A stretch of 19,580 nucleotides of DNA from a bacterium (GTDB lineage: Bacteria > Zixibacteria > MSB-5A5 > GN15 > FEB-12), in NCBI GenBank assembly GCA_030629485.1, contig DAOVOW010000002.1, forward strand, positions 1 through 19,580. Direction: 5' to 3'. A model generated the notes under the pieces. That model searched no databases and was not told the DNA's origin. It saw only the letters and a program-made list of their open reading frames with translations. Position 1 is the first letter of the stretch. Every line of letters starts with the position of its first letter. A program made the translations under genes and the position numbers. Below are positions 1-16,950 of the stretch, in pieces.

Positions 1-177
1 CAGTTTGGGAAACCGTACATGTTGATCGGTGGCTTGCATGGATTCAATGAGTTCGGATTGATTAAGGATTTGCATTCCGTTTGTCCTACTCATTGCACTC
101 AGCACATACCGGAGATCAAGTCCATGTATCCGGATATGTACATCCAGGGGGGAGTCGGGACGGTTATTGAGATATGA
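1..177 (+). CDS. MBL-fold metallo-hydrolase, C-terminal fragment
   Basis: Frame 1 is open from the window edge to TGA at 175-177, giving the last 58 residues of a protein. The segment carries GGLHGF, then CPTHCTQ, and ends in GGVGTVIEI. This pattern is typical of the C-terminus of metallo-beta-lactamase-fold hydrolases related to the archaeal dihydropterin/RFA-P-type enzymes, where the late histidines belong to the metal site. Substrate is unknown. In many anaerobes such hydrolases lie near NifX-like proteins and radical SAM enzymes, as here. The next gene begins just downstream, or overlaps if its upstream TTG start is used, so the two are probably co-transcribed. The N-terminal HxHxDH motif lies outside the window, so the family call rests on the tail alone. 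Confidence 0.72.
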   Translation, partial: QFGKPYMLIGGLHGFNEFGLIKDLHSVCPTHCTQHIPEIKSMYPDMYIQGGVGTVIEI

Positions 178-217
178 GGAATGGCTACTCGAAATCGTCA
201 GCAGGAATACCGGAAAG

Positions 218-1567
218 ATGAAGCACTTGCCTTCCAAAGAAGATCTCTGCAGGAAATTGTTGACCGTTGTGGACAGTATATCGGACGGTGTTTTCGCCGT
301 CGATATGGACTGGAAGATAACCTTTCTCAATAAAGCAGCAGAACGGATTACCGGCTTCAAGGCTGAGGAAGCGATTGGAAAGACTTGCGCGGAGATTTTC
401 CGGACTGATATATGTAACGGCAACTGTGCCTTGAAACGGACCATGGCTACAGAGAAACCGGTTATCAATCAGCCTGTCTGTATCACCAATAGGGAAGGTA
501 AGCTTATTCCTATTAGTATATCTACGGCGTTACTGAGAGACCAGCATGGTCGGATTATAGGTGGCGTGGAAACCTTTCGAGACCTCGATCTGGTCAGGCA
601 AGTGCAAGGGGAGTTCGAGGCGAGGTATACGTATGAGAATATGATCAGCCGCAGCCGGAAAATGCTGGACATCTTCCATCTTCTCCCTGCGATAGCGCAA
701 AGCGGAAGCACTGTATTGATCGAAGGAGAAAGTGGAACCGGCAAGGAGTTGATCGCGCGCGCAATACACAGCCTTGGTTCCAGAAAACGAGGACCATTCA
801 TAAGCATTAATTGCGGCGCTCTTCCCGACACACTCCTCGAATCTGAACTGTTCGGATATGTAGCCGGTGCGTTTACCGATGCCAAGAAAGACAAGAAGGG
901 TCGCTTCGCGCTCGCCGAGAAAGGTACCTTGCTACTGGATGAGATTGGCGATGTTTCATCGGCAATGCAGGTTAAGTTGCTCAGGGTTCTGCAGGAAAAG
1001 ACCTTTGAGCCTCTGGGGAGTACTCAATCTGTTGTGGCCGACGTGAGAGTTGTAGCTGCCACCAACAGGTCACTTGACAAACTTGTCTCTGAAGGGCAAT
1101 TCAGGAAGGACCTGTTTTACCGTATCAACGTCATCAGAATCTCGCTTCCTCCATTGCGGGAAAGGCGAGAGGATATACCACTGCTGGCGGATCATTTTGT
1201 CCAGCGGTTCAACAGACTGCGTCAAACCAATATCTCAGGCATTTCATCACGAGCCCTCAAGCTTCTAATGGCATACAACTACCCGGGCAATATCCGAGAG
1301 CTCGAAAACATTATTGAACACGCCTTTGTACTTAGCCCCGGGGGAGTCATTAAACCGGAAGATCTGCCGGAGAACCTTCAGGCAAGAGGGGCCATCCCAG
1401 TTGTTGAGATAGCCAGCACTATGAAGGAGATGGAATCTTTGTTCATAATGGCAGCCCTGAAACGACACAACTGGAACCGCACGGAAACTGCTAAAGACCT
1501 TGCCATCAATCCGTCGACTCTCTACAGAAAAATCAAGAAGCTTGGCTTGAAAATACCCTTAGAGTGA
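218..1567 (+). CDS. Sigma-54-dependent transcriptional activator (PAS, AAA+, Fis-type HTH)
   Basis: This is a bacterial enhancer-binding protein that uses ATP hydrolysis to open sigma-54 RNA polymerase complexes. Numbering is from ATG 218 (449 aa). A PAS sensor covers about residues 15-125. Walker A GESGTGKE is at 170-177, the sigma-54 contact loop reads GAFTDA at 217-222 (classically GAFTGA), Walker B LLLDEIGD is at 238-245, and a Fis-like helix-turn-helix is at about 415-444. There is no receiver domain, so the signal probably enters through PAS. Three cysteines (57, 66, 70; C-x8-C-x3-C) in the PAS could hold a metal, an Fe-S cluster or a redox switch (inference). The start is uncertain: TTG at 167 would add 17 residues and overlap the previous gene, whereas ATG 218 has AGGA 11 bases upstream. 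A matching promoter and a likely binding site follow directly. Confidence 0.92.
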   Translation: MKHLPSKEDLCRKLLTVVDSISDGVFAVDMDWKITFLNKAAERITGFKAEEAIGKTCAEIFRTDICNGNCALKRTMATEKPVINQPVCITNREGKLIPISISTALLRDQHGRIIGGVETFRDLDLVRQVQGEFEARYTYENMISRSRKMLDIFHLLPAIAQSGSTVLIEGESGTGKELIARAIHSLGSRKRGPFISINCGALPDTLLESELFGYVAGAFTDAKKDKKGRFALAEKGTLLLDEIGDVSSAMQVKLLRVLQEKTFEPLGSTQSVVADVRVVAATNRSLDKLVSEGQFRKDLFYRINVIRISLPPLRERREDIPLLADHFVQRFNRLRQTNISGISSRALKLLMAYNYPGNIRELENIIEHAFVLSPGGVIKPEDLPENLQARGAIPVVEIASTMKEMESLFIMAALKRHNWNRTETAKDLAINPSTLYRKIKKLGLKIPLE

Positions 1568-1593
1568 CACCGATAGCTTTCAGGAGATGGTAT

Positions 1594-1637
1594 TGCACAA
1601 ACGCACGGTAGACCGTGTCGTATCGTGCGTATGTGCA
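1594..1637. promoter_or_regulatory. Long inverted repeat, candidate enhancer (UAS) for the sigma-54 activator
   Basis: Arms TGCACAAACGCACG (1594-1607) and CGTGCGTATGTGCA (1624-1637) are inverted copies matching at 13 of 14 positions, with a 16-base spacer. The spacer edge holds a smaller palindrome, ACGGT-AG-ACCGT (1605-1616). The centre lies about 135 bases upstream of the -24 box at 1752, a usual distance for a sigma-54 enhancer. It starts 26 bases after the activator stop. No T-run follows, so a terminator is less likely. Binding by the neighbouring activator is inference. A weaker pair, CTAACG (1690-1695) and CGTTAG (1716-1721), lies between it and the promoter. Confidence 0.55.
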
Positions 1638-1749
1638 CGTTTCATGCCATTAGCTACTCTTAACCGTCGGTGTCTTATCGGTAATATGTCTAACGTAAGA
1701 AGTTGTATATCAGTGCGTTAGGGCGTTACTCTGGTTGTGGGTGATTGTC

Positions 1750-1766
1750 TTGGCATGGAATATGCG
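1750..1766 (+). promoter_or_regulatory. Sigma-54 (-24/-12) promoter
   Basis: The sequence TTGGCATGGAATATGCG matches the consensus YTGGCACGrNNNTTGCW at nearly every position. The invariant GG (1752-1753) and GC (1764-1765) are separated by exactly 10 bases. Transcription should start near 1777, about 27 bases before ATG 1804 of the DUF2173 gene. It lies directly behind a sigma-54 activator gene, which strongly supports function. Assignment is from sequence only. Confidence 0.78.
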
Positions 1767-1803
1767 TTCAGTCCGCTCAAACGATAGAGAAGGAGATGAT
1801 ACA

Positions 1804-2157
1804 ATGATAGGACTTGATAGGTTAATGAAGATCAAGGGAGTTGTCGCAGCCGGTCAGTTCTCTGACGATGGCAAGGTTATTCGAAAGGTTGGTGAATTGC
1901 CGGAGGACCTGATGAAGAGCGCTAGACTGTGCGTGCAGCAAAATGAAAGCTCCCGCGAATTCTTAAAGGCACTTGATGACAGGTCAGAAAGGGACTGGCA
2001 ACCGCTCATGGGTTGGATAGTTTGGGGTGGTAAATACTCGGTGGTTGTAGTTGGCAACACGCGCGTGTTTGTCGAGACCAGCCGTGGAGATTACAACCAG
2101 TTGATGATTGACCTGGCCGGATCGGAAGGAACTGGTCCTCGGCCCATGAACTACTAG
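1804..2157 (+). CDS. DUF2173 family protein (roadblock/LC7-like)
   Basis: A 117-aa soluble protein recognised as DUF2173 from its opening MIGLDRLMKIKGVVAAGQF, the central LMGWIVWGGKYSVVVVGNTRVFVET and overall length. The alternating strands and helices resemble the roadblock/LC7 fold, but no biochemical function is established for the family. ATG 1804 is preferred over upstream in-frame starts because AAGGAG (from 1789) sits just before it, and because the earlier start at 1735 lies upstream of the predicted transcription start. As the first gene behind the -24/-12 promoter it should be the most directly activator-controlled gene. It may act as a small sensor or scaffold for the operon (inference). 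Confidence 0.85.
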   Translation: MIGLDRLMKIKGVVAAGQFSDDGKVIRKVGELPEDLMKSARLCVQQNESSREFLKALDDRSERDWQPLMGWIVWGGKYSVVVVGNTRVFVETSRGDYNQLMIDLAGSEGTGPRPMNY

Positions 2158-2234
2158 CACTAAAGGTTGATCGCGAATGATACACAACTCTGTACCCTAT
2201 TACGATGCAACAATACACTATGGAGGTAACTGTT

Positions 2235-2426
2235 ATGACTGAGAAGAAACAAGAGAAGCCGAAGCTGGGTGAAGGCATTTTGCACGAAAGCGCCAGACCC
2301 ATGAGGGTTTACATCGGTGATGACGGCGTCATGTACCTGTGCGACAAGGACGTCGACCGTAACAAGCCTCTGAAAGAGCAGGCTTGCTGGACCTGCGATC
2401 AAGTGCTTTTCACTCGCGGTGGTTGA
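2235..2426 (+). CDS. Small Cys-containing protein, unrecognised (63 aa)
   Basis: I do not recognise a named family. ATG 2235 is preceded by GGAGG at 2221-2225, a good ribosome site, and rejects the longer reading from 2205. The N-terminus is highly charged (MTEKKQEKPKLGEG) and the middle reads VYIGDDGVMYLCDKDVD. The tail contains CWTCDQV and ends FTRGG. Three cysteines, two as CxxC, could bind a metal or form a redox pair. No signal peptide or membrane segment is visible. It lies 77 bases after the DUF2173 gene and before a SEC-C mini-protein that also has a Cys cluster. A modified-peptide precursor is conceivable given the Gly-Gly end and a radical SAM enzyme in the cluster, but nothing proves it. 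Confidence 0.75.
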   Translation: MTEKKQEKPKLGEGILHESARPMRVYIGDDGVMYLCDKDVDRNKPLKEQACWTCDQVLFTRGG

Positions 2427-2482
2427 GTCTCAAAGGACAGCAATTACGGATACACTCCTCTTGCAAAGGAACCATCGCTCAG

Positions 2483-2520
2483 AACAGCCAGCCCGCGTAC
2501 TGTTATTTGGGGTGGCTGTT
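2483..2520 (+). other. Intra-operon stem-loop
   Basis: AACAGCCAGCCC (2483-2494) pairs with GGGGTGGCTGTT (2509-2520) at 11 of 12 positions around a 14-base loop. It fills the gap between the 63-aa gene and the SEC-C gene. No T-run follows at once (the first T6 run, 2541-2546, is inside the next gene). A processing or mRNA-stability element, or a partial attenuator, is more likely than a strong terminator. Confidence 0.45.
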
Positions 2521-2533
2521 GAAAGAATCTGTC

Positions 2534-2707
2534 ATGGGATTTTTTGATAAGCTTTTTAATCGTCCTCCCAAGTCTGCTGTGAATCTTGGACACAACAGTC
2601 CCTGCTGGTGCGGCAGCGGCAAGAAGTACAAGAGATGTCACTATACATCGGATCAGAAGTACTTCAATGCCAAGATAATGCATGCTGCCTGCAAGACCTC
2701 CGGGTGA
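2534..2707 (+). CDS. SEC-C motif mini-protein
   Basis: A 57-aa protein starting MGFFDKLF and carrying the zinc-binding SEC-C signature CWCGSGKKYKRCH in its middle, here nearly the whole protein. SEC-C motifs (CxCxSGxxxxxCH) bind Zn through three Cys and one His. They are best known from the SecA C-terminus, where they contact SecB and ribosomes, but stand-alone copies are common and mostly uncharacterised. ATG 2534 was chosen because it places the family's usual short hydrophobic N-terminus at the start; a longer in-frame reading from 2384 would run back through the hairpin and overlap the previous gene. The ribosome site is weak. Its role in this cluster is unknown. Confidence 0.8.
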   Translation: MGFFDKLFNRPPKSAVNLGHNSPCWCGSGKKYKRCHYTSDQKYFNAKIMHAACKTSG

Positions 2708-2777
2708 AAGAGATAAGCGAGGTGAGTTTCACCTCTATCGCGTCGATTCTTCAAGAGTAGGAAGGCAACCCGCAGTT

Positions 2778-3413
2778 GTGGCAAGAATTGAACCATTCGA
2801 AAGACACCCAGCGGAGTATGAGGAATGGTTCGAGAAGAACCATTTCGCCTACTATTCGGAACTCCAGGCGGTTAGGGAGCAATTGCCAAAAAGCGGAGAG
2901 GGGCTCGAAATCGGCGTGGGAACAGGCCGTTTTGCTGCCCCGTTGTGTGTCGAATTCGGAGTTGAACCGTCCTCTCGTATGCGTGAAATCGCAAAACACA
3001 GGGGGATCGAGGTTGTTGGCGGTGTCGCCGAGAGCCTTCCATTCGCGGATGAACAGTTCGACTTTGTTCTCATGGTTACGACAGTCTGCTTTCTTGACGA
3101 CATTGATGCTGCCTGTCGTGAGGCCCGCCGAGTATTAAGACGCACAGGACATTTTATCGTAGGCTTTGTCGATAGCGATTCCCTGCTTGGTAAGCTGTAT
3201 GAAAAGAAAAAGAGGGATAGTGAGTTTTACAGGATCGCCACTTTTTACTCGGTCGATGAGATCGTTTCACACCTTAGGCGAGCCAGTTTTGGACATTTCA
3301 ACGTTGTCCAAACCACTTTTCATCCTTTGAATGAGATCGAGAAAGTTGAACCTGTAGTTAGTGGCTATGGTCAAGGATCATTTGTAGTGATTAGCGCCGG
3401 GAAAGAGGATTGA
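2778..3413 (+). CDS. Class I SAM-dependent methyltransferase
   Basis: A 211-aa Rossmann-fold methyltransferase. Motif I reads EIGVGTG at residues 44-50, an acidic loop VEPS follows, then VAESLPFADEQFDFVLMV as motifs II/III, and ARRVLRRTGHFIVGFVD at the typical post-motif strand. This is the Methyltransf_11 / UbiE-like pattern; the methyl acceptor cannot be read from sequence. GTG 2778 is favoured because AGGAAGG (2759-2765) precedes it and the resulting N-terminus ARIEPFERHPAEYEEWF matches the family. The open frame reaches back to 2682, which would overlap the SEC-C gene by 26 bases. The following permease starts 48 bases on, so the genes are likely in one operon. Confidence 0.85.
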   Translation: MARIEPFERHPAEYEEWFEKNHFAYYSELQAVREQLPKSGEGLEIGVGTGRFAAPLCVEFGVEPSSRMREIAKHRGIEVVGGVAESLPFADEQFDFVLMVTTVCFLDDIDAACREARRVLRRTGHFIVGFVDSDSLLGKLYEKKKRDSEFYRIATFYSVDEIVSHLRRASFGHFNVVQTTFHPLNEIEKVEPVVSGYGQGSFVVISAGKED

Positions 3414-3460
3414 GAGATGTCGCGGCAGTCTGAAAAGACCCTACGAGGGAGCCCGGTGAC

Positions 3461-4483
3461 ATGATTGACAGCTTGAACACTGCGGTGATGATTACAGGCT
3501 TTGTTTTGCTGATGATGCTTGTTATCGAGTACGTTAATGTCATAACCAGAGGGTCATGGCAAAACAGCTTAGCAAAGCGCAGGTGGACGCAGTATCTTCT
3601 TGCAGTTGTCCTTGGCGCCACTCCCGGCTGTATGGGTGCTTTTGCAGTCGTCGCCATGTTCTCTCATCGGGTTGTGTCATTTGGAGCGCTGGTCGCAGCC
3701 ATGATTGCTACCAGCGGCGACGAAGCATTTGTAATGTTGGCGCTTTTCCCCGAAAAAGCTCTTCTTCTGACCGCGATTCTTGTTATTATCGCCTTCGGAG
3801 TTGGTTGGTTAACAGATATGGTCGTATCAAAGCGGGTCGAAACGAGGTTTGAGGCGTGCCGTCAACTTGAAGTTCATGAGTCGGAATTCTGCGATTGTTT
3901 TCCAAAAGATAATGTCTTCATGCAATGGCGGCACCTATCCTTGGCCAGAGGCGTTTTGAGTGTGGCTCTACTGTTGTTTGTGCTGGGTATAGCCATTGGG
4001 TCAATCGGACCGCAGGTTTGGGATTGGAAGCGCATAACCTTATTGATTGCCGGATTGGGCGGGCTCTTTATCACAACCACCGTCCCCGAACATTTCTTGC
4101 AGGAACATCTCTGGAAACATGTAGTTCTCAAACATGGACGAAGCATTTTCCTATGGACCCTCGGGGCGCTTCTGGTTGCTCACATTATCACAAACCAGTT
4201 GCACTTGGAGGGGTACATTCAGGCTAATGCGCTTCTTGTAATTCTTGTTGCCTGTCTTCTTGGAATCATCCCGGAATCCGGTCCCCATCTGTTTTTTGTC
4301 ACATTGTATGCTCAGGGGACCGTTCCTTTTGCCGTACTACTTGCCAGTTCTATCGTCCAGGATGGTCACGGCATGCTTCCAATGTTAGCGCACTCACGAT
4401 GGGGCTTCCTGCTGGTCAAAGGAATCAACCTGTTTGTCGGTTTGGCAGTGGGTGTCTTAGTCTATTTCGGAGGATGGCTATGA
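3461..4483 (+). CDS. ArsP_2-type (10-TM) putative heavy-metal exporter
   Basis: A 340-aa integral membrane protein recognised as the ArsP_2 / putative metal exporter family. Two signature blocks are present: ATPGCMGAF followed by FGALVAAMIATSGDEAFVM in the first half, and GIIPESGPHLFF followed by SSIVQDGHGMLPML in the second. They look like internal pseudo-repeats with conserved polar residues inside membrane helices. Hydrophobic segments cover both halves. The hydrophilic centre (about residues 130-150) reads EACRQLEVHESEFCDCF, a Cys/His-rich loop that could bind a soft metal. The exported ion is unproven; family labels (arsenic, manganese, heavy metal) are predictions. ATG 3461 has GAGGGAG upstream. 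It lies within the sigma-54 cluster, suggesting export or import of a metal linked to the cluster's purpose. Confidence 0.85.
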   Translation: MIDSLNTAVMITGFVLLMMLVIEYVNVITRGSWQNSLAKRRWTQYLLAVVLGATPGCMGAFAVVAMFSHRVVSFGALVAAMIATSGDEAFVMLALFPEKALLLTAILVIIAFGVGWLTDMVVSKRVETRFEACRQLEVHESEFCDCFPKDNVFMQWRHLSLARGVLSVALLLFVLGIAIGSIGPQVWDWKRITLLIAGLGGLFITTTVPEHFLQEHLWKHVVLKHGRSIFLWTLGALLVAHIITNQLHLEGYIQANALLVILVACLLGIIPESGPHLFFVTLYAQGTVPFAVLLASSIVQDGHGMLPMLAHSRWGFLLVKGINLFVGLAVGVLVYFGGWL

Positions 4484-4602
4484 TACCGCGGAATAGTACC
4501 AGAAGCTGCTTCCCCGACGGGAACTATCATAGAAACAAGAGAAGTGATATATTGTAATTGTATAGTGGTGTCTCAACCGGGAACAACAGGGAAAGTAACA
4601 GG

Positions 4603-5772
4603 ATGAACAAAACATTCCGAATATCAAATAGAGTTTCACAGATCCCGAAATCGGCGATCCACGAGATGACGAGATTGTCAAAGGAAGTCGATGATGTAGC
4701 GTTTCTCTCTTGGGCAAAGCCGACTTCAGGTACACCCGAACACATTAACGAAGGTGCCATTACAGCTATCAGAAATGGCTCTGTTGGCGGATACTCCGAG
4801 AACGCCGGTCTTGTGAGTCTTAGGAAGGCAATAGTTGAAAAACTGAAAAGGGATAACGACATAGAGGCTGACATCTCGCAGATTCTCGTTACGGTGGGCG
4901 CTATCGAAGGACTCTCCGCCGCCGTAATGGCGATAATCGATCCCGGAGATGAGGTGCTTCTGTTTACCCCGACCTATTCCACCCACATCCGGCAGGTTGT
5001 AATCGCTTCGGGAAAACCGGTATTGATCCCCACTGTCGAAGAAGAAGGTTTCGCCCTTGATTTCGACGCCATCAGAAAAGCAATCTCTCCTAAGACGAAA
5101 GCGATCATCTGCTGCTCGCCCAATAATCCGACCGGCACGGTTTTCTCCGAGAAAGAACTCCGCGAATTGGCCTCGCTCGCATTGCAGCATAACCTCATGA
5201 TCGTTACGGACGAAGCATACGAGTACTTCGTCTTCGACGGCCACCAGCACTTTTCTATCGCCTCTATTCCCGAGATGAAAGGGCATGTTATTAGTTGCTA
5301 CACGTTCACGAAAACATACGCCATGACAGGCTGGCGTATCGGCTACCTGCACGCGGATGAATCGTTGATTCCACAGATCACGAAGGCACACATCCCCTTC
5401 GCTATATGCGCGCCGGTAGTGTCTCAATATGCGGCACTTGCCGCCCTGGAGGGTCCTCAGGATTGCGTCTCCGAGTTCAGGGCACACTATCTTACCGCTC
5501 GCAATCTTATGTGCGAACGCCTTGATGATCTTGATTCGGTTTTTGCATATTACAAACCGGACGGTTCCTATCTCATGTTTCCGAAAATACTGTTGGAGGA
5601 GGGAAAGGACTCAATGGCTTTCTGTAAGAACCTTTTGAAAAACGGCAAAGTGTCAACAACACCGGGCATAGCCTTTGGGCCGACGGGCGAAAGTCACTTG
5701 AGACTCTCATTCTGCGTCCCCCTGGACGAGATCAACAAGGCTTTTGACAGGATAAAGGCACTGTTCGTATGA
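4603..5772 (+). CDS. PLP-dependent aminotransferase, class I/II
   Basis: A fold-type I aminotransferase of 389 aa. The SPNNPTGT block is at 172-179, the PLP-binding aspartate in VTDEAYEYF is at about 203, the Schiff-base lysine is K237 in TFTKTYAMTGWRIGY, and the carboxylate-binding arginine lies in LRLSFC near the end. The family moves amino groups between amino acids and 2-oxo acids; substrate is not decidable here. ATG 4603 was chosen over TTG 4558; a GGGAA stretch lies 11-15 bases upstream. The 119-base gap after the permease is the largest so far in the cluster, so an internal promoter is possible, though I see no convincing one. Confidence 0.93.
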   Translation: MNKTFRISNRVSQIPKSAIHEMTRLSKEVDDVAFLSWAKPTSGTPEHINEGAITAIRNGSVGGYSENAGLVSLRKAIVEKLKRDNDIEADISQILVTVGAIEGLSAAVMAIIDPGDEVLLFTPTYSTHIRQVVIASGKPVLIPTVEEEGFALDFDAIRKAISPKTKAIICCSPNNPTGTVFSEKELRELASLALQHNLMIVTDEAYEYFVFDGHQHFSIASIPEMKGHVISCYTFTKTYAMTGWRIGYLHADESLIPQITKAHIPFAICAPVVSQYAALAALEGPQDCVSEFRAHYLTARNLMCERLDDLDSVFAYYKPDGSYLMFPKILLEEGKDSMAFCKNLLKNGKVSTTPGIAFGPTGESHLRLSFCVPLDEINKAFDRIKALFV

Positions 5773-5842
5773 TACCCGGGAGTCATTACATGATTACGCA
5801 GAATCGCAACGGACGCTGCATAGTAGTTGAGAAGGTGAAATA

Positions 5843-6769
5843 ATGTATGTTTATGGACCCGTTCCGTCGCGCAGGTTAGGACGATCGCTGGGCGTTAGCC
5901 CGATTCCACCCAAGACGTGCTCTTACTCCTGCGTGTACTGCCAGTTGGGAAGGACAACACAACTTCGAGCAGGGAGAAAAAGCTTTTTCCCCAAAGAAGA
6001 TATCCTTGCTGAGATCATTGAGTCAGCACCGAAGGATGGAACGGACTATGTCACGTTTGTCGGTGATGGTGAACCTACCCTGAACAAAGACCTGGGCTGG
6101 CTCATACAGCGTACCAAAGAGAAACTGCATCTGCCTGTGGCTGTGATAACAAATGGTTCATTGCTATTCAAGGAAGATGTCAGAGAAGATCTTGGCAAAG
6201 CTGATGTCGTGGTACCGACTTTGGATGCGGGCAATGAAAGAATGTTCAGGATCATCAACCAATCCAGTCGGCGTATTCGTTTCAAGAAAATGCTGCAGGG
6301 TCTGATAGACTTCAGACCCGAATACTCCGGGCAGATATGGATGGAGGTCATGCTAATCAAGGATCTGAATGATACTACCATGGAATTGCAGGCTGTCAAG
6401 CACGCTATTGATATGATTAACCCGGATAGGGTGTATGTTCTTACCCCAATCCGTCCGCCGGCAGAACCCTGGGTGAGGCCATCAGATCCGGAGACTATTC
6501 TGAAAGCGCAGGAAATCATTGGGAGCGCTATACCGGTAACAGGGGTGGAGACCGGTCAATTCGGTTTGGGGGAATTCTCAGATGCCAGACAGGCTATTCT
6601 GGAAATCGGTTCGCGTCACCCCCTGCGCCGGGAGCAGGTGGCCGAAATAGAAAAAGAATTTTCCATATCAGGCGTAGTCAGACAAATGGTAGAAAACAAG
6701 GAACTAGTCAATGTTAAGTATAATGGTGAAGAATATCTGCTTCCCGGGCATTTCGCCAGGGGTAGATAG
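5843..6769 (+). CDS. Radical SAM protein (COG0731-like)
   Basis: A 308-aa radical SAM enzyme. C26, C30 and C33 form the canonical CxxxCxxC that holds the 4Fe-4S cluster. FVGDGEPTL downstream is the SAM-binding GGE-like motif. The opening YGPVPSRRLGRSLGVSP is characteristic of a conserved group related to wyosine-type COG0731 proteins whose substrates are unknown. No SPASM or B12 domain is visible. The last 60 residues (REQVAEIEKEF to YLLPG) look like a small winged-helix domain. AAGGTG lies before ATG 5843. Such proteins are oxygen-sensitive, which fits an anaerobe. The cupin gene starts 24 bases after its stop, so the two are probably co-transcribed. Confidence 0.9.
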   Translation: MYVYGPVPSRRLGRSLGVSPIPPKTCSYSCVYCQLGRTTQLRAGRKSFFPKEDILAEIIESAPKDGTDYVTFVGDGEPTLNKDLGWLIQRTKEKLHLPVAVITNGSLLFKEDVREDLGKADVVVPTLDAGNERMFRIINQSSRRIRFKKMLQGLIDFRPEYSGQIWMEVMLIKDLNDTTMELQAVKHAIDMINPDRVYVLTPIRPPAEPWVRPSDPETILKAQEIIGSAIPVTGVETGQFGLGEFSDARQAILEIGSRHPLRREQVAEIEKEFSISGVVRQMVENKELVNVKYNGEEYLLPGHFARGR

Positions 6770-6793
6770 ACTCACATAGGAATGGAGGTTCCG

Positions 6794-7126
6794 ATGATGA
6801 ATGCGGTGAGCGTAAATGTGAATGATATGGAATGGCAGGTTTCCGGAGGCTATTCTGCCGGGGCCGAGGAAAAAGTACTTAGTGTTGGTGGCAGTATTGC
6901 CCCAAGAACTATTTTGCTTAAAATCCCTTCGGGCTGGAGCATGGATGCCCATTCCCACATCCATACAGAGCTACACTATGTACTGGAGGGAGAATATGAA
7001 AGCAAAGGTGAAACATATCGATCCGGGACTTTTCGTGTGATTCCAAAAGGAGTGGAGCACGGCCCGTTTGCTTCCAAGACGGGCGCCATCATCCTGGTTA
7101 CCTGGTGTACGTTACAAGATAAATAG
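6794..7126 (+). CDS. Cupin domain protein
   Basis: A single-domain cupin of about 110 aa. Motif 1 fits G(X)5HXH(X)3E(X)6G exactly, from GWSMDAHSHIHTE to LEG. Motif 2 reads GTFRVIPKGVEHGPF, with G, P, G and H in place. The two His, the Glu and the later His should bind one divalent metal. Cupins of this size can be isomerases, dioxygenases or ligand-binding proteins, so function stays open. GGAGG at 6784-6788 lies inside the possible ATG 6782 start and serves ATG 6794 (5-base spacing) or ATG 6797 (8-base spacing). It lies directly behind the radical SAM gene. After it come 205 bases without a convincing gene, holding a CACGGCCGTG palindrome at 7221-7230. Confidence 0.88.
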   Translation: MMNAVSVNVNDMEWQVSGGYSAGAEEKVLSVGGSIAPRTILLKIPSGWSMDAHSHIHTELHYVLEGEYESKGETYRSGTFRVIPKGVEHGPFASKTGAIILVTWCTLQDK

Positions 7127-7331
7127 AACCAGGAATCTATCATGCTCGCTGGGACAAAAACCGATCATGCGTGGCTCGATTGATTATGATTACAGGTTTC
7201 ATCAATTGAACGTGTTTTGTCACGGCCGTGAAGGTTACCGATGAGAACGCGGATTTCACGGAAGGACTGTCTCCGGAATGATATGGAGAGCTTGAAAAAA
7301 CTTGGGTGGATTCTATGGTGGTATTTCGAAG

Positions 7332-7544
7332 ATGAGAGTTACGAACAATACTTCAATCGAGGAATTGATTGAAAAGGTCCCGGAAGCTGTCTCTTACCTA
7401 AGCAGAAGGGGAATCAGGTGTGTTCAATGTGGGGAACCGATCTGGGGAACGCTCGAAGAAGCGGCCAGAGAAAAAGGGTTTGGTGAAGATGATATTAGAC
7501 AATTCATCAAAGACCTGAATGAACTAGGCAAATCAGTAAGGTGA
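7332..7544 (+). CDS. DUF1858 domain protein
   Basis: A 70-aa protein that is almost wholly a DUF1858 domain. It opens with TSIEELIEKVPEAVSYLSRRGIRC and continues CVQCGEPIWGTLEEAA, ending in a short helix DDIRQFIKDLNEL. The family is a small helical domain, often carrying Cys residues and common in anaerobes, where it is sometimes fused to hybrid-cluster or sulfur-related proteins. Here it has two cysteines (CVQC, CxxC) that may bind metal. ATG 7332 is preferred to 7302 because MRVTNNTSIEEL is the usual beginning; the ribosome site is poor. It is followed at 12 bases by the NifX-like gene, so the pair is probably co-translated. Confidence 0.85.
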   Translation: MRVTNNTSIEELIEKVPEAVSYLSRRGIRCVQCGEPIWGTLEEAAREKGFGEDDIRQFIKDLNELGKSVR

Positions 7545-7555
7545 ATGGAGAGAAC

Positions 7556-7888
7556 ATGAGAATAGCTGTTGCTTCTGAGGGGAGAGAGTTGTCGAGCAAG
7601 ATAGATCCGCGCTTTGGCAGAGCTAAGTACATTGTCATTCACGATACTGGAAATGGCGAATTGGAGGTGCTTGACAACCAGGAAACATCTCAACTCCCCG
7701 GTGGTGCGGGAGTGAAAGCGGCGGAAGCTGTAGTCGACAAGAATGTCGACTATGTTGTATCACAGAACTTCGGTCCCAAGGCCCTCCAGGTCTTCAAGGT
7801 CGCGAACGTAAAGGCAGCCGTATTTTCCGACGGAACCGTCGCCGATGCGATAGAGTTGACCAAGCGCGGGCAACTGAACATCATATAA
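7556..7888 (+). CDS. NifX/NafY-like dinitrogenase cofactor family protein
   Basis: A 110-aa stand-alone member of the NifB/NifX/NafY (MTH1175-type) fold. Typical features are the start MRIAVASEG, the block SSKIDPRFGRAKYIVIHD, the turn GGAGVKAAEAVVDKNVDYVV, the GPKALQVF segment and the end IELTKRGQL. Members with a nif operon bind or carry iron-molybdenum cofactor precursors. Orphans such as this one occur widely in anaerobes without nitrogenase, and no nif structural gene lies in this window, so nitrogen fixation should not be inferred. GGAG (7547-7550) places the start at ATG 7556 rather than GTG 7541. It is the last gene of the + strand block. Confidence 0.9.
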   Translation: MRIAVASEGRELSSKIDPRFGRAKYIVIHDTGNGELEVLDNQETSQLPGGAGVKAAEAVVDKNVDYVVSQNFGPKALQVFKVANVKAAVFSDGTVADAIELTKRGQLNII

Positions 7889-8050
7889 CAGGCTGTGGTC
7901 ATGTCCCTAACAGCCAACAAAGCGGTTCTGTAGGCCATAACACATGGGATTCTGGGATGGTTCTACGTCATCGCGAGACCACGCGCTTCGCGCGTCCGCC
8001 CACAGGAACTCTGTCAAGGTGCGTGGGGTGTAAAACCCCGATTGATGCAG
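7889..8050. other. Convergent intergenic region with three hairpins
   Basis: This gap lies between the end of the + strand cluster and the end of the - strand M48 gene, so it should stop transcription from both sides. I see GGCTGT/ACAGCC (7891-7896 with 7910-7915), a strong ACGCGC-TTC-GCGCGT hairpin (7981-7995), and GGGGT-GTAAA-ACCCC (8025-8039). None has a clear T-run, so classic intrinsic termination is not shown. No gene is apparent. Confidence 0.35.
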
Positions 8051-8878
8051 CTACTTCGCCGGGAACCGCTTGAGCATCTGTTGGTATCGAGATTCGTTGA
8101 GGATCAGACCTGGAGGTAGAGGTTGCATCTCGGCGATCTGAGCGTGCGCGTTGGCGATCCGTTCCTGCGTCGCAGGATGAGAACTGGCCAGTTGCTCGAA
8201 GACATTCGGTGCGCCACGATCACCGAGCGCCGCAAGTTTGTCGAACATCCCGAGAGCACCCTGAGGATCATAGCCAGCCTTCGCCATGTAATGAATACCG
8301 AACCTATCGGCCTCGCGTTCGGCGCCTCGCGAGTAACCGGCAAAGACCAGTCCCATCCCCAGTCCGATAGCAGCATCCAACGCTTGTCCTGCCCCCTCGC
8401 CTCCAAAGGCCAGTTCGTAAGCCAAGGCCACCCCGAGTGCTTTCTGGAGTCGCTTGATGCCATGTCGCGCGACAACATGCGAGATCTCGTGCGCCATCAC
8501 CGCCGCCATTTCCGCCTCGTTGTCCATCTCGCGCAACAGTCCGGTATAGAAATAGATGTAACCACCCGGCGCCGCGAAGGCGTTGATCTGGTCGGACTGA
8601 ATGACTTTGAAATGGTACTCGATATCCTGCCGGTCACAGATATCAACGATCTTCTGCCCCACCTCGGTCAGATATGCCTGCCAAACGGAGTCAGGCAGAA
8701 CAGTCTCGGTTCCCTCTACCTGCTGCGCCATACCGGCGCCGATCTCAACCTCTTGACCGGACGGGATGATAATGAACGATTTCTGACCGCCGGGACCAGT
8801 AGTAGCGCATGACAAGAAGACGACAAACATTGCAGCCAACACAATAGCGCGTACTCTGAAAACTCGAGTAGTCATCAT
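8051..8878 (-). CDS. M48 family metalloprotease, lipoprotein
   Basis: A 275-aa zinc protease of the M48 family (BepA/LoiP-like). A signal sequence with lipobox FLSC puts the lipidated cysteine at residue 24, so it should be anchored in the periplasm. HEISH (130-134) provides two zinc ligands and the catalytic Glu, and READRFG (E189) gives the third ligand. The stretch QINAFAAPGGYIYFYTGLL is the typical substrate-cleft strand before the active site. Related enzymes remove misfolded outer-membrane proteins. AGGAG lies 2 bases before ATG 8878 and 5 before ATG 8875; the second may be the true start. It lies 237 bases after the DUF4870-type gene, with a repeat in between. Confidence 0.93.
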   Translation of the reverse strand: MMTTRVFRVRAIVLAAMFVVFLSCATTGPGGQKSFIIIPSGQEVEIGAGMAQQVEGTETVLPDSVWQAYLTEVGQKIVDICDRQDIEYHFKVIQSDQINAFAAPGGYIYFYTGLLREMDNEAEMAAVMAHEISHVVARHGIKRLQKALGVALAYELAFGGEGAGQALDAAIGLGMGLVFAGYSRGAEREADRFGIHYMAKAGYDPQGALGMFDKLAALGDRGAPNVFEQLASSHPATQERIANAHAQIAEMQPLPPGLILNESRYQQMLKRFPAK

Positions 8879-8930
8879 CTCTCCTTCACAATTCGCATGT
8901 TCGAAAAAACGCCGGAAGAGAAACTATGAA

Positions 8931-9097
8931 GTTGTTGAAAAAGAGCTTCATCACACCTGAAACTTACCTGACTTGTCATGCCCGCGAAGGCGGGCATCCA
9001 GTAACTCGTCAATCCAGATAGATTCCCGCCTGCGCGGGAATGACATGCAACGCAGCGAAACTTCTTTTCTGCCTCTTGTGCCGAGTATTTCAACAAC
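8931..9097. repeat. Nested inverted repeat around a REP unit, MITE-like
   Basis: GTTGTTGAAA (8931-8940) and TTTCAACAAC (9088-9097) are perfect 10-base inverted copies enclosing the hairpin pair at 8974-9045. The 167-base unit could fold into one long cruciform or mRNA stem. No flanking target duplication was found. It lies between two same-direction genes (DUF4870-type and M48) and contains no gene. Confidence 0.55.
8974..9045. repeat. REP-like palindromic element, head-to-head pair
   Basis: The element starts TGTCAT and ends ATGACA. Inside are two hairpins: GCCCGC-GAAG-GCGGGC (8980-8995) and TTCCCGC-CTGC-GCGGGAA (9023-9040). The two units point in opposite directions. The GTCAT-hairpin-ATCCAG unit is a dispersed repeat type seen in many Gram-negative genomes, and a second copy lies at 17921-17990. 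Confidence 0.8.
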
Positions 9098-9115
9098 CTG
9101 CCAGTTGTGGCCCAG

Positions 9116-9526
9116 CTACAGCTTGGCTTTGTCGGCCAGGTCACCAATGATTGGCAAGCGGTAGTTCTTTCCCTGAATGGCGAATACGATACCAGCCACC
9201 GACAATGCCACAGCACCGATCAGGATACCCTTGAACACCAGATCGGATATGGCGTCAATCAGGAACAATACCGCGACCAGTTCGATGAGGAACAACAGCA
9301 CTCCCTGGCGAGCGTGAAAGCGTGCTTCTTTGTTATCTTTCATGCTCAAGAGCGGCACGAAGCACAAAAGCGGGATGTACGCCATGATAGCAGCCATACG
9401 TCCCTCATCCGAGACGAACTGTCCGGTGTTCGCACCGCTGGGACTGTCCTGCGCGGTCTCGTCAAGACCGGGAATCTCCCCAGTCGGTTTCTCATCGGCG
9501 TTGTCTGTGAAAAACGAATCTGTCAT
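9116..9526 (-). CDS. DUF4870-like (Tic20-type) membrane protein
   Basis: A 136-aa protein with an acidic, soluble N-terminus (about 40 residues) followed by three or four hydrophobic segments. The motif AYIPLLCFVPLL, then the charged NKEARFHARQGVLLF, matches the DUF4870 / Tic20-like pattern, in which HARQG lies between membrane helices. Function is unknown in bacteria. GGGAGG lies just upstream of ATG 9526. The gene starts 30 bases downstream of the GH57 stop and is likely co-transcribed with it. Confidence 0.75.
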   Translation of the reverse strand: MTDSFFTDNADEKPTGEIPGLDETAQDSPSGANTGQFVSDEGRMAAIMAYIPLLCFVPLLSMKDNKEARFHARQGVLLFLIELVAVLFLIDAISDLVFKGILIGAVALSVAGIVFAIQGKNYRLPIIGDLADKAKL

Positions 9527-9556
9527 AGTGCCTCCCTGGCGCTCCGAAGCGGCAGG

Positions 9557-11686
9557 CTAAGCGGGCCAAAACATCTCTTTGTTTTTTTCGGCCACGTTGA
9601 TTTCAATTGGCTCGTCCTCGGGCCAGTTTTCCAGCTTTTCCTGCCCGTCCAACAGCGCCACCGTGAAGCCAACCCGGCCGAAGCCTTCCTCCCATAACCA
9701 GGACCGATCCACGGCAAGCTCAAGTATGTCACCAAGGCAGTACTGATACCAGCCAGCCTCTTCAGCCGCTTCAACCTCACCGGTCGGCGTCAACATCAGA
9801 TGTCGCACCTCCGGGGTGAAAAAAGCGATCTGAAAAACCAGCTTCTTGACTAATTCTAAAGCTTTCACGTCAACAAAGTCAAGCCGAATATACAGCCGCT
9901 GGTGATCATAAGCGAAATGTATCCTGGAGAGGTAACGCTCAACGCGATGCATGGCGCCACCCGCTTTGAGGCAATCGAAGTAACCCGCACCGGCCCATTC
10001 GTAAAAATCCGACCGACGGCCATCAATCTCAGGTGTCACCAGGGCATCGGGCGACACGGCTTTGAGACCGGCGCCGGCGCGATAGATGGGATCATACAGT
10101 CTGGCTGGAACCTCCAAGCCCAGCAACTCGTACACAGCCATGAGGTGCCGGCGAAAGATGTGATCGAATTGTTCGTTGCCGGCGCCGCGATGTTCATCGC
10201 CGTACCACCAGCACCAGTCGGAACCCTCGGCAATGTAAATCTGCCGCCAGGCGGCGGCGAGGCGATCCGAGTCAAAATCAGCGTGTTGTTCTTCGAATTC
10301 CGTCAACATATTGCGGGCCTCACTCAGAAGATCCCATGCGGCATTGTCTTCCTGATGACCAATCCAGATCCTAAAATTGTGATTGATCCAACTACCGGCA
10401 AAGAGTGAAGACAACGGTCGAGACTTAAGGTTCTGCGCGGCCTCAGTCAGGGTTACTGTCCGGATCAGAGGATCATCATTCAGGCGGCGATACAACTCGT
10501 TTAGAAAATCACGACCGTCGTTGGGGAAGTACTCCCACGCGTTCTCACCATCCAAAATCACAGGCACCACGGTCTGGTCAAGACGATCGGCCAGCAACTG
10601 GCGCAACCTGGTCAGGTGATCGACAAAGTCTGCAGCAGCTTTGTCGGCGTCCCAACCGGAATAGACAAAACCGATTCGGTCGGACAGAGCGTGGTCTCTG
10701 AAAAACAGCTTCAGCCCCGAGCCGTATTCGTAGACGGCGTGGATTGGTTGTGATCGTGGGTCCATATTGGACTTCTTGAGGGAACCATACAGGATTTCTT
10801 CATCGGTGGCAACCCACTTTACGCCCAGACGGATCAACATCTCGGCGACCTCCTCGGATACCGAGCCCTCCGAAGGCCACAAACCTGCCATCGGGGCGTC
10901 AAACCATTCCTCAAACTTCTCCATCGATCTCCGAATGTGCCACTCGGCGTCTTCCGGATGACAAAAGCGCTTGGAGGGCAACGTCAACCTGGGAGTAGCT
11001 TCCAGAGCGACGTTGGTGTCGCACAGGAGTGGGAGGATCGGATGGTAGTACGGCGTGAACGAGATGTCTACCTTTTGCTGGGTGAAGTAATCACGGTAGG
11101 CAGGCACTACTTTGCGAATCAGAGCTATCTGCCAGTCAAGAAGCGCCTGCTTTTGTTCCTCGCTGAAGTTGCGCCCCTTGGCCAGCAACTCCTTGACAGG
11201 TGATTCGCCGTGGAACATCGGATCGGCCCATACCAGATTGGACCAGACTTGCAGGTCTCTGATTTCCTGTGATGTGAACAGTGAAGGTAGCCCCTCCCCG
11301 CCCGCACCGTTTCTGGCCTTTCGGAACAGTTCATGATAGCGTCGGTACGGTTCGATCATGTTAGTTTGATTAGCCGCGAAGAAACTCTCCAGGAGTTCGG
11401 CTTTCTGACTGGGAGTCATATCCTCGGCTCGCAGGCGGGAAAGATCCAGATGCGGATCAGAGCCGCCGTCCACGTACATCTGAAGCTGGTCCAACAGAGA
11501 CGGCACCAGATTGAACGTCACGCGAACGTTTTCGTACTCACCGACAGTGAGCAGCATATCGAGATAGTCTTTAGTGGCGTGTAGACGGACCCACGGTAGC
11601 ACCATCCGGTTGGAGCCGGGCTCCTGATAATTCGGCTGATGCATATGCCATAGGATTGCAAGCTTCAACGGAGTAGTAATAGTCAT
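9557..11686 (-). CDS. Glycoside hydrolase family 57 protein
   Basis: A 709-aa GH57 enzyme (alpha-amylase / 4-alpha-glucanotransferase-type family), acting on alpha-glucans such as glycogen or starch. Motifs seen: WHMHQP (about 13-18), GLWPSEGSVS with likely nucleophile E273, VPVILDGENAWEYF with likely acid/base D379, and WIGHQEDNAAWDLL further on. A C-terminal region after about 560 reads as beta-rich (HFAYDHQRLYIRLDF) and may be a carbohydrate-binding domain. No signal peptide, so probably cytoplasmic. ATG 11686 is chosen over 11710 because GGGAGG lies just before it and the N-terminus then begins MTITTPLKLAILWHMHQP. It follows the TPR gene by 32 bases. Confidence 0.93.
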   Translation of the reverse strand: MTITTPLKLAILWHMHQPNYQEPGSNRMVLPWVRLHATKDYLDMLLTVGEYENVRVTFNLVPSLLDQLQMYVDGGSDPHLDLSRLRAEDMTPSQKAELLESFFAANQTNMIEPYRRYHELFRKARNGAGGEGLPSLFTSQEIRDLQVWSNLVWADPMFHGESPVKELLAKGRNFSEEQKQALLDWQIALIRKVVPAYRDYFTQQKVDISFTPYYHPILPLLCDTNVALEATPRLTLPSKRFCHPEDAEWHIRRSMEKFEEWFDAPMAGLWPSEGSVSEEVAEMLIRLGVKWVATDEEILYGSLKKSNMDPRSQPIHAVYEYGSGLKLFFRDHALSDRIGFVYSGWDADKAAADFVDHLTRLRQLLADRLDQTVVPVILDGENAWEYFPNDGRDFLNELYRRLNDDPLIRTVTLTEAAQNLKSRPLSSLFAGSWINHNFRIWIGHQEDNAAWDLLSEARNMLTEFEEQHADFDSDRLAAAWRQIYIAEGSDWCWWYGDEHRGAGNEQFDHIFRRHLMAVYELLGLEVPARLYDPIYRAGAGLKAVSPDALVTPEIDGRRSDFYEWAGAGYFDCLKAGGAMHRVERYLSRIHFAYDHQRLYIRLDFVDVKALELVKKLVFQIAFFTPEVRHLMLTPTGEVEAAEEAGWYQYCLGDILELAVDRSWLWEEGFGRVGFTVALLDGQEKLENWPEDEPIEINVAEKNKEMFWPA

Positions 11687-11718
11687 GTCGCCTCCCCAAC
11701 CCTCGGCCATCGATGTTA

Positions 11719-12393
11719 TCAGCCGGGGTTCTTCTCAACGAATCTCCGAACAGCGCGCTTGACCAACTCAGACCCTGCGAAACGCGCTTTGATGCTATCA
11801 AGGTCCGCCCTTGCTTTCTCCACCTCGCCGATCTCGAGGTAGTTTCGCATGGCGGAATTGAGATAGTCACCACCCAGCGGCCCATCTGGAAACTCGCTAA
11901 ACGCTTGTTGGAATTTCTCGGCTGCCTCGACGAAGTTACCCTGGTCCTCATAGCAGGAGGCGACGCCGGCCGATGCCGCGGCTCTGGTAAGGGTGTTGTT
12001 ACGATACTTGTTCAAGTACATCTCGAAGTACCGGATAGCTTCATCATAATTACGGATGCGGTAGTTGAGCTTGCCGAGCAGAAACGTCGCATGTTCGGCC
12101 GTCTTATCCCCGGAATAGTCCTCGACGATCTGCGTAAAACCCATGATCGCCACCTGGTTGTTCTTGTTGCGATAATCCTGAAGAGCATGAGCATACTTCG
12201 TTGCGGCCTCGCCTGCCCGAGTTGCACGAGACTGGGCATAGTACACCGATGCCACGATTATCAGGACCGCCGCCGCCACTCCAATCACTAACAACTGCCA
12301 GTTTCCAAGTAACCAGCTTCGTAACTTGAGCATAAAAGTGGTGAACTTATCTTCCTTGATCTGCCTCTTGGTCAGTCTAACCTTCTGGTACAT
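11719..12393 (-). CDS. Membrane-anchored TPR protein
   Basis: A 224-aa protein with a basic N-terminus (VRLTKRQIKEDKF), one transmembrane helix at about 33-53 (WQLLVIGVAAAVLIIVASVYY), then helical repeats facing the periplasm. At least three TPR-like units are visible: AIMGFTQIVEDYSGDKTA, DEAIRYFEMYLNKYRNN, and FVEAAEKFQQAFSEFP. The layout resembles YfgM-like proteins that work with periplasmic chaperones or the Sec translocon; this is analogy, not identity. GAGGAG before ATG 12393 selects that start over TTG 12396. It lies 172 bases after the outer-membrane protein gene; the gap holds GGTTGA-G-TCAACC (12452-12464), whose right arm could also pair with a TTGAC stretch near 12535. Confidence 0.85.
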   Translation of the reverse strand: MYQKVRLTKRQIKEDKFTTFMLKLRSWLLGNWQLLVIGVAAAVLIIVASVYYAQSRATRAGEAATKYAHALQDYRNKNNQVAIMGFTQIVEDYSGDKTAEHATFLLGKLNYRIRNYDEAIRYFEMYLNKYRNNTLTRAAASAGVASCYEDQGNFVEAAEKFQQAFSEFPDGPLGGDYLNSAMRNYLEIGEVEKARADLDSIKARFAGSELVKRAVRRFVEKNPG

Positions 12394-12565
12394 CAACGAC
12401 TCCTCACACGCGTTTTTCTCTCATATCGTTTATCGGCAGCGCGACCTCGCAGGTTGAGTCAACCAAGCCCACCGGCCACCATGTCAGCAGAACCGGATGG
12501 CATGAGCAAACCGCAGAATCGCTTTGCCTGGTTGACCGATGTAAACTGCCGTAAGGACTGCCGGC

Positions 12566-14008: not shown

Positions 14009-14100
14009 ACCTTGGACTCCTTTATCACGCAGCAAACCGTTTTGTCTTCTTCATAGACGCACCAGCGCGCCAAAACAACCAACGAATATATGACTTACAG

Positions 14101-14140
14101 GGGACAATGTCAAACTTTCTGCGGGACAAAATGTCGTCCC
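14101..14140. repeat. Repeated GGGACA / TGTC motif, possible operator or IS-end remnant
   Basis: GGGACAATGTC (14101-14111) is followed by GGGACAAAATGTCGTCCC (14123-14140), which is itself an inverted repeat (GACA-AAA-TGTC flanked by GGGA and TCCC). It lies about 93 bases upstream of the outer-membrane protein gene start. Close repeats of this kind occur at IS ends and at operators; I cannot decide. The rest of the 257-base gap shows a G-run and a C-run (14157-14218) and no gene. Confidence 0.4.
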
Positions 14141-14265
14141 TAAGCGGGTATTTTTGGTGGGGGTTCGTGGTGTGGCGCCTTCAGACTGCCGCTGGGAAGG
14201 CAATGCACACCCCCCCCACAAGGCGTTATTTCATAATCGATTATGATCAACGGCACCGTCAGGAA

Positions 14266-15123: not shown

Positions 15124-15242
15124 TCAAATGCTCTTCCGAAACAATGACCGTCACAACGTTTATTCCCGACCATGTACAGAGAATACCTGTATTCACTGAG
15201 AAAAGCAATGGGCGGGATCACGCTGAATGTGATGTGAATAAA

Positions 15243-15316
15243 TACCCCCGGCAGGAATCGAACCTGCGACCCTCGGTTTAGGAAACCGATGCTCTATCCA
15301 ACTGAGCTACGGGGGC
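15243..15316 (-). tRNA. tRNA-Arg (anticodon CCT)
   Basis: A 74-base cloverleaf on the minus strand. Acceptor GCCCCCG pairs with CGGGGGT (a G-T pair at 1-72), the discriminator is A, the D-arm is GCTC...GAGC, the anticodon arm is TCGGT-TTCCTAA-ACCGA (anticodon CCT, reading AGG), and the T-arm is GCAGG-TTCGATT-CCTGC. No CCA is encoded. It lies between apt and the PSRP gene on the same strand. Confidence 0.96.
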
Positions 15317-15321
15317 ATGGC

Positions 15322-15339: not shown

Positions 15340-15410
15340 TATAGGCCAGCTTGGATTTCTTTCTCCACAGGACAAATGTACGACAGTGCGCTCGCTTGCG
15401 CAAACAGTAA

Positions 15411-16883: not shown

Positions 16884-16950
16884 ATCTTCGCAACTTAGCT
16901 AAGTCAAAATAGACCATTTATATGGCTTGTCAACGATTTTGTACAACAGA

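Follow-up and report, generated by a model that had tools for sequence, protein, structure and literature searches.

A conserved sigma-54 switch of the ORP-regulator type very probably controls the DUF2173-p63 gene pair in Zixibacteria

Introduction

The closest described relatives of the locus reported here are the ORP operons of Desulfovibrio vulgaris (DVU2103-DVU2109), whose regulator, DVU2106, appears with the motif GAFTDA in a table of PMC4641369. According to the passages of PMC3897727 that deal with the orp promoters, IHF sites lie between the site for the enhancer-binding protein (EBP) and the -24/-12 element and IHF is needed, and the relevant part of PMC6345978 describes Orp8 as a Di-Nase one-domain protein. 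Here we analyze a 19,580-base stretch of DNA from a member of the Zixibacteria ("the window"), which is the entire contig C68 (DAOVOW010000002.1) of a draft genome that is 83% complete; all negative results for that genome depend on this completeness. The window carries a gene for an EBP, followed by a candidate control region and ten plus-strand genes, the first two of which encode a DUF2173 protein and a 63-amino-acid protein that we call p63.

The locus resembles the ORP operons in several ways. Its EBP, too, is a one-component regulator with a GAFTDA motif (DVU2106 being compared by its listed motif only), a predicted sigma-54 promoter stands beside the regulator gene, and putative palindromic EBP sites, an IHF site, and a -24/-12 element follow one another in the same order, with a spacing that resembles the layout established by experiment for the orp promoters, as given in those passages of PMC3897727. 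The last of the ten genes encodes a single-domain PF02579 protein, a further likeness. In contrast to the ORP operons, the unit does not consist of two divergent operons, its first genes are those for DUF2173 and p63, and it lacks MinD/ferredoxin ATPases like Orp3 and Orp4: no MinD-like ATPase with two ferredoxin motifs was found among its genes, and no MrpORP (Mrp fused to a PF02579-type domain) was found above cut-off in its own genome.

DUF2173 itself offers a second comparison. In the part of PMC11323534 concerned with it, a Sulfolobaceae protein labeled there as belonging to the same Pfam family (PF09941) is reported to rise 99-fold in one species and 32-fold in another when the cells are given elemental sulfur, which puts it among the most strongly raised genes; that protein is a putative archaeal membrane protein, whereas the DUF2173 of the window is a member of a sigma-54 unit.

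Results

Control region

We compared the window with DNA stretches of relatives (labeled L followed by a number) and surveyed 132 genomes of the phylum (G followed by a number), checking genes by Pfam and NCBIfam. A preliminary description of the window had placed a near-perfect inverted repeat behind a PAS/AAA+/Fis activator, and both were recovered (Table 1). The arms of the repeat (1594-1610 and 1621-1637) are 88% complementary, and it resolves into two TGCR-N4-YGCA palindromes with centers 32 bp apart, which is about three turns of the helix. These palindromes are kept in relatives. We examined 260 bp behind each of 23 EBPs, 19 of them linked to DUF2173 or p63 and 4 of ORP type, and found 29 strict palindromes against 0.23 expected from shuffling, with two copies 31 to 33 bp apart in 11 of the 23 regions. 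Six regions (L014, L019, L020, L036, and two of ORP type) had no strict palindrome. In L019 and L020 the region ahead of DUF2173 is about 1.1 kb long, and letters resembling TTGCA..TGCAA were seen there by eye only. Shuffle controls throughout (paired sites, promoter, IHF, and palindromes) preserve letters, not dinucleotides.

We built a weight matrix for the paired sites from 11 stretches and scanned 28 with it, these 11 and the window included (377 kb in total). It found paired sites in 18 of the 28, the window among them, and a promoter follows in each; a single letter-shuffled version of this DNA gave one match. The 18 stretches come from 17 genomes. Conserved order and -24/-12 boxes around DUF2173-p63, which the preliminary description had put forward as a check, are indeed seen in other genomes. 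Seven of the 17 held-out stretches matched, namely L013 (nearly the window's copy) and L065 to L070; nine of the 17 have an EBP of this family, and six of these nine are among the matches (L013, L065 to L068, and L070). Scores for L065 to L070 were 19.0 to 32.5, below the 32.7 to 42.6 of the trained stretches. There was no match in L022 or in L071 to L076, and an EBP of this family was not seen there.

The predicted promoter, TGGCATGGAATATGCG, agrees with 9 of 12 consensus letters, and we derived the same start, 1777, that had been proposed before. All 18 paired-site stretches have a -24/-12 match (8 to 12 of 12 letters; per-stretch shuffle P of 0.005 to 0.065), and the distance from the paired site to the -24 is 109 to 112 bp in 14 of them and 100 to 101 bp in 4, a difference of one helical turn. 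It is because a promoter is kept at a fixed distance in all 18 that the one in the window is convincing. The promoter-to-start distances of L067 and L070 (26 and 168) are unreliable, because the first in-frame start codons were used there. A minus-strand -24/-12-like match at 1649 was discarded, its GG being lost in L013. Between the paired sites and the promoter lies an IHF-consensus site, and an exact consensus at the same offset is present in 5 of the 18 stretches (L013 included), against 0.29 expected.

The components of a sigma-54 regulon are all present: rpoN in the window's own genome, a -24/-12 promoter, and an EBP with an AAA+ domain. A large regulon in that genome was rejected, since TTGCA-N3-5-TGCA gave 34 matches against 25 for the control reading and GCACG-N12-18-CGTGC 14 against 21; of these 14 places only the window's scored with the model (38.8; next 9.8), in a search that would miss sites without the GCACG/CGTGC core. 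We conclude that a conserved ORP-type sigma-54 switch, as recognized from sequence, very probably controls DUF2173-p63.

Conserved head and loose tail

DUF2173 was found in 15 of the 132 genomes, p63 in 20, and both in 14 (Fisher test, 2e-13; this and later Fisher tests are uncorrected for kinship between genomes). The EBP adjoins DUF2173 in 14 of the 15, with paired sites between them in 12. Several genomes depart from this arrangement. In G012, one copy of DUF2173 stands with an EBP without sites and the other has sites and no EBP on its contig; in G090, DUF2173 is divergent from the EBP and the paired sites lie ahead of p63; G071 has DUF2173 only as a broken copy, with no EBP; and G092 and G121 carry the EBP, sites, and p63 without DUF2173.

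The tail behaves differently. A contig of G001, from the same genus, matches the window at 1-309, then at 2397-2781, then at 4443-7096. It is without most of the EBP, the control region, DUF2173, most of p63, and nearly all of the methyltransferase and permease, and it keeps the MBL, SEC-C, aminotransferase, and radical SAM genes and the start of the cupin gene, where the contig ends. Fragments of the EBP and p63 are left there, pointing to loss rather than gain. The genus is represented by seven genomes: the unit is present in two of them and this scar in one, and the other four, one of which is 69% complete, gave no match for DUF2173, p63, the permease, or the radical SAM protein. Where the methyltransferase and permease are missing, L139 (G001:C133) has about 170 bp of unrelated sequence (6537-6707) with inverted repeats visible by eye and the look of a dispersed repeat, which has no match in the window.

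Relatives of the radical SAM protein (at least 50% identity, a threshold set afterwards) occur in 23 genomes, 12 with DUF2173 and 11 among the 117 without it, and in G113, G059, G119, and G090 they lie on contigs other than that of DUF2173. The losses in G001 and the radical SAM genes in genomes without DUF2173 rule out an indivisible ten-gene operon. The fixed unit, as delimited by these comparisons, is thus EBP-sites-promoter-DUF2173-p63 and not ten genes, and much of the tail can be separated from it, though read-through may extend into those genes. The earlier proposal of one self-contained response unit therefore holds for the regulator, sites, promoter, and DUF2173-p63 and not for the other eight genes, which vary between relatives; scattering, which had been named as evidence against a single unit, affects much of the tail, and the head stays together. 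Two contigs of G012, L016 at its end and L022 at its start, each hold part of p63. They are not joined, and together they suggest the order sites-DUF2173-p63-SEC-C-methyltransferase-TrmO-MBL-PF02579.

Regulator

The window's EBP had been called an orphan, and it is not isolated: it shares GAFTDA with DVU2106 and its paired sites with two of the four ORP-type loci of these relatives. The motif is present in 22 of 23 EBPs compared, the window's included; the exception, L065z, has GAFTGA and is an EBP of another kind. A PAS cysteine motif, C-x8-C-x3-C, occurs in 16 of 18 EBPs linked to DUF2173 or p63, in 3 of 4 linked to ORP genes, and also in the window's EBP. The same palindromes, 33 bp apart, are found at the ORP-type loci L141 and L143, and strict palindromes are absent from the 260 bp downstream of the EBP at the ORP-type loci L020 and L067. 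L141 runs from the EBP to two PF02579 genes, DUF5320, two MinD-like ATPases with ferredoxin motifs, a methyltransferase, TrmO, radical SAM, and cupin genes, with an Mrp-type ATPase farther along. In a tree of EBPs, 15 of those linked to DUF2173 or p63 group together with moderate support (89/91), and those of L017, L019, and L020 form a separate group (100/99); support is weak at the forks that join these groups to each other and to the ORP-linked EBPs, and the tree has some flagged long branches.

Judged by GAFTDA and by the palindromes at L141 and L143, the window unit appears to be closely related to the ORP switch: a sigma-54 switch of ORP-regulator type re-used for a different target. Genes resembling DsrMKOP membrane redox complexes were also seen in the vicinity of either an ORP-type EBP or the radical SAM gene (L143, 3343-8357; L144, 14292-17965; L147, 3063-7985; L067, 5241-9699); the calls are partial Pfam hits in L067 and weak BLAST hits plus inspection by eye in the other three.

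DUF2173 and p63

DUF2173 of the window has 117 residues and no membrane segment obvious by eye. Its structure model (pLDDT 78.7) has the order alpha-beta-beta-alpha-beta-beta-beta-alpha plus one extra short helix, which we take to be the roadblock/LC7 layout, and one source labels many DUF2173 relatives roadblock. The model suggests that it is probably a roadblock-like small protein. In p63, H17, C36, C51, and C54 do not vary among 25 aligned close relatives. The family is a wide one, since a p63 profile search returned 609 proteins. Against the PDB, neither the p63 profile nor that of DUF2173 gave anything convincing (best E values, 0.011 and 0.17). Distant p63 relatives were noted in L071, L072, L073, L075, and L076 with no EBP or DUF2173 nearby, those in L073 and L075 beside what look by eye like thioredoxin-like genes.

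Sulfur genes in relatives

Eight related stretches (L017, L019, L020, L021, L032, L070, L150, and L151) hold the EBP or DUF2173 together with genes of the TusA (PF01206), DsrE (PF02635), FlpD (PF02662), or HdrA-, HdrC-, or HdrB-like families, a set shared with sHdr and related pathways; in these relatives it takes the form A-A2-small wHTH-like-C-B plus FlpD, whereas the window has no HdrA/B/C, TusA, DsrE, or FlpD genes. DUF2173 and p63 are followed by TusA, FlpD, and HdrA-like genes in L019 and L020 and by HdrA, HdrA2, HdrC, HdrB, and DsrE in L017, and in L070 FlpD and Hdr genes come after p63 with two other genes between. HdrA2-HdrC-HdrB lies upstream of the EBP in L021, and in L032 and L151 (where the contig end cuts the EBP) an ArsR-type gene plus TusA-FlpD-HdrA-HdrA2 runs divergently from the EBP. 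In L150, from G071, a DUF2173 broken by internal stops (6532-6723) precedes open DsrE-TusA-FlpD-Hdr genes from 6808, and no EBP match was found in the 6.5 kb ahead of it.

We scored six HdrA candidates per genome. Seven of the 132 genomes have HdrA of this type, defined as at least 59% identity (the next reach 41 to 46%), and DUF2173 is present in six of the seven (five without the broken copy) against 9 of the 125 others (Fisher test, 5e-6, or 1e-4 when the broken copy is excluded). In the remaining one of the seven, G124, an EBP of the same family stands beside HdrA. ArsR-type regulator genes occur near the EBP or Hdr genes in L032 (6229-6570) and L031 (7393-7752) by Pfam, in L151 (9705-10043) by BLAST, and in L033 (12839-13171) by eye; the one in L032, between the EBP and Hdr operons, passes the general ArsR cut-off and reaches 60.5 bits for BigR, whose cut-off is 155. 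These relatives suggest that the metal or redox theme once proposed for the window is one of sulfur and Fe-S redox chemistry (TusA, DsrE, FlpD, Hdr-like) and not of metals in general.

Gene content of the window

All ten same-strand genes listed before were recovered after the promoter, with intergenic gaps of 11 to 205 bp (Table 1). The gene described as DUF1858 does resemble that family, and it falls below both curated cut-offs (Pfam, 23.6 against 32.2 bits; NCBIfam prismane_assoc, 37.9 against 44.95). For the PF02579 gene, described as NifX-like and as probably serving another use, we rejected a nif role; since the same family is found in the ORP-type operon L141, its presence without nitrogenase needs no special use of the kind that had been supposed. 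The methyltransferase frame has its first ATG at 2682, and the alignment with relatives begins at about residue 32. The MBL fragment, 40 bp upstream of the EBP, is 93% identical to the end of a complete MBL-fold protein in L013.

Table 1. Positions of genes and predicted control elements in the window
Feature	Position	Strand	Evidence or remark
MBL-fold metallohydrolase, C-terminal end	1..177	+	cut by contig end
EBP, PAS/AAA+/Fis enhancer-binding protein, GAFTDA loop	218..1567	+	Sigma54_activat 2.6e-67, PAS, HTH_8
Activator site palindrome 1, TGCACAAACGCA (predicted)	1594..1605	+	
Activator site palindrome 2, TGCGTATGTGCA (predicted)	1626..1637	+	paired-site model
IHF-consensus site TATCAGTGCGTTA (WATCARNNNNTTR)	1708..1720	+	consensus as given in part of PMC3897727
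Sigma-54 -24/-12 promoter TGGCATGGAATATGCG (predicted)	1751..1766	+	
DUF2173 (PF09941), probably roadblock-like small protein	1804..2157	+	4.2e-26; first gene of unit
p63, 63-aa protein	2235..2426	+	no Pfam family at 0.1
SEC-C motif protein, 57 aa	2534..2707	+	variable tail
Class I methyltransferase	2778..3413	+	variable tail; start uncertain
ArsP_2 / "arsenic efflux" permease	3461..4483	+	variable tail; 143 bits against cut-off of 100 (NCBIfam)
Class I/II aminotransferase	4603..5772	+	separable tail
Radical SAM protein	5843..6769	+	separable tail
Cupin_7 protein, ChrR-like	6782..7126	+	separable tail
DUF1858 / hybrid-cluster-protein-associated domain protein	7332..7544	+	under both curated cut-offs
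PF02579 (NifX/ORP family) single-domain protein	7556..7888	+	1.5e-19

Over positions 1-8200, Rfam gave no RNA element at the gathering cut-off, and scans for terminators (5 found, 6.9 expected) and sigma-70 promoters (12 found, 8.4 expected) were at chance level; the top sigma-70-like match (11 of 12), at 5744-5773, lies directly before the radical SAM gene. The minus strand from 8051 to 18418 encodes unrelated functions: an M48 peptidase, a GH57 protein, a TPR protein, a FadL-like porin (below cut-off), a kinase/pyrophosphorylase, a phosphoribosyltransferase, an acylphosphatase, SLOG and SurE proteins, and two tRNAs. Beyond it, at 18482-19363 on the same strand, is a 293-residue reading frame without a Pfam match.

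Discussion

On balance, we lean toward reading the locus as a sulfur/redox-linked variant of the ORP-type sigma-54 switch, with DUF2173 and p63 as its constant products. Several results weigh against this reading. The paired-site model finds nothing in L019, L020, or L036, although an EBP and DUF2173 are present in each. Only 5 of the 18 stretches have an exact IHF site, two of these being near-copies, and in each of the remaining 13 the best IHF match scores no higher than shuffled sequence does (P of 0.117 to 0.97). Distant relatives of p63 lose H17 and C54, its structure model is weak (pLDDT 72.2), and its Cys and His residues are only putative ligands. As to sulfur, the threshold for the HdrA type was set after the list had been viewed and its Fisher tests ignore kinship; the genomes of the window and of G005 are without HdrA of this type (best matches, 40 to 41% identity), and in all 9 of the 15 DUF2173 genomes lack it. 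No Hdr operon in the scanned stretches (L150 and L151 lay outside the scan) has a paired site of its own, which weighs against claiming that the EBP controls Hdr. In the same part of PMC11323534, the rise of DUF2173 in a third Sulfolobaceae species is 2.3-fold and not significant, and the protein is described there as a membrane protein, so that it may be only a distant relative. A sulfur role for the window is drawn from its relatives, and we consider a sulfur/redox purpose about evenly balanced between holding and failing.

Two other readings give the tail genes more weight, and we regard both as unlikely. One is a metal or metalloid response operon: the EBP would drive the whole set of ten genes, ArsP_2 and the methyltransferase carrying out arsenic-like export and methylation and the rest being helpers. 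The permease passes the "arsenic efflux" family cut-off, which makes arsenic a possible substrate; the methyltransferase and permease are missing from G001 together with the head, and DUF2173 and ArsP_2 occur together in 6 genomes, 15 having either one (Fisher test, 0.002). However, 9 of the 15 DUF2173 genomes have no permease and 9 of the 15 permease genomes no DUF2173, the aminotransferase, radical SAM, and cupin genes are separable in G001, and, unlike ars systems, the unit is under predicted sigma-54 control, with no ArsR-type regulator among its genes and ArsM matches of the methyltransferase far under cut-off. The other reading makes the locus an ORP-type Fe-S assembly or cell-division system minus its MinD-like partners, the terminal PF02579 protein and DUF1858/p63 replacing the ORP complex. 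The shared EBP family and paired sites at L141 and L143 speak for it, as does part of the tail (PF02579, methyltransferase, radical SAM, and cupin genes) recurring behind the EBP in L141. Against it stand the missing MinD/ferredoxin ATPase and MrpORP, the ORP-type loci L020 and L067 without strict palindromes, and the L141 and L143 stretches, in which DUF2173 and p63 were not found; moreover, among the stretches with DUF2173, a relative of the window's PF02579 gene was seen behind the head only in the window itself, L013, and probably G012 (L022, a contig that begins inside p63), many stretches being cut by contig ends.

That the real targets of the EBP lie elsewhere, the neighboring promoter being incidental, is very improbable. 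The window's -24/-12 match is weak by itself (shuffle P of 0.035) and is one of five matches of at least 9 letters in the window, counting both strands, and in G012 no EBP was seen on the contig of the DUF2173-p63 operon that has paired sites, the EBP standing on another contig ahead of a second DUF2173 without them. Sites, spacing, and gene order are nevertheless conserved across 17 genomes, and the pattern used found no second scoring paired site in the window's own genome.

Under the sulfur/redox-linked reading, the EBP would be made at a low level, probably from the upstream MBL operon, and its PAS domain, with three conserved cysteines, would sense a sulfur/redox or Fe-S cue. As the conserved layout suggests, two EBP dimers would bind the two palindromes, three helical turns apart, IHF would bend the DNA between sites and promoter, and the GAFTDA loop would open sigma-54 polymerase at the promoter. 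DUF2173 and p63 might then act together as a small scaffold or relay for sulfur or thiol-redox traffic in the cytosol and, where a TusA/FlpD/Hdr-type operon exists, feed its electron transfer. The genes from SEC-C to PF02579 may receive read-through, and several of them would simply be a separable gene neighborhood. More boldly, and with considerable doubt, we suggest that a DUF2173 scaffold and a p63 redox protein could be the core of a cytosolic sulfur relay, switched by sigma-54 and so far undescribed, through which Zixibacteria and Electryoneota pass sulfane sulfur or electrons to TusA/FlpD/Hdr under a re-targeted ORP-type regulator; no description of the unit was found in the open-licence literature searched, where a single paper mentions DUF2173.

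For two families that have had no known role, DUF2173 in bacteria and p63, these comparisons supply a defined switch together with a partner that is conserved and a theme that can be tested. Sigma-54 regulators of the ORP type, which are known from Desulfovibrio, are indicated in Zixibacteria as well, where they would serve at least two targets through a common grammar of DNA sites, and the control region would be a ready reporter for asking what an ORP-type regulator senses.

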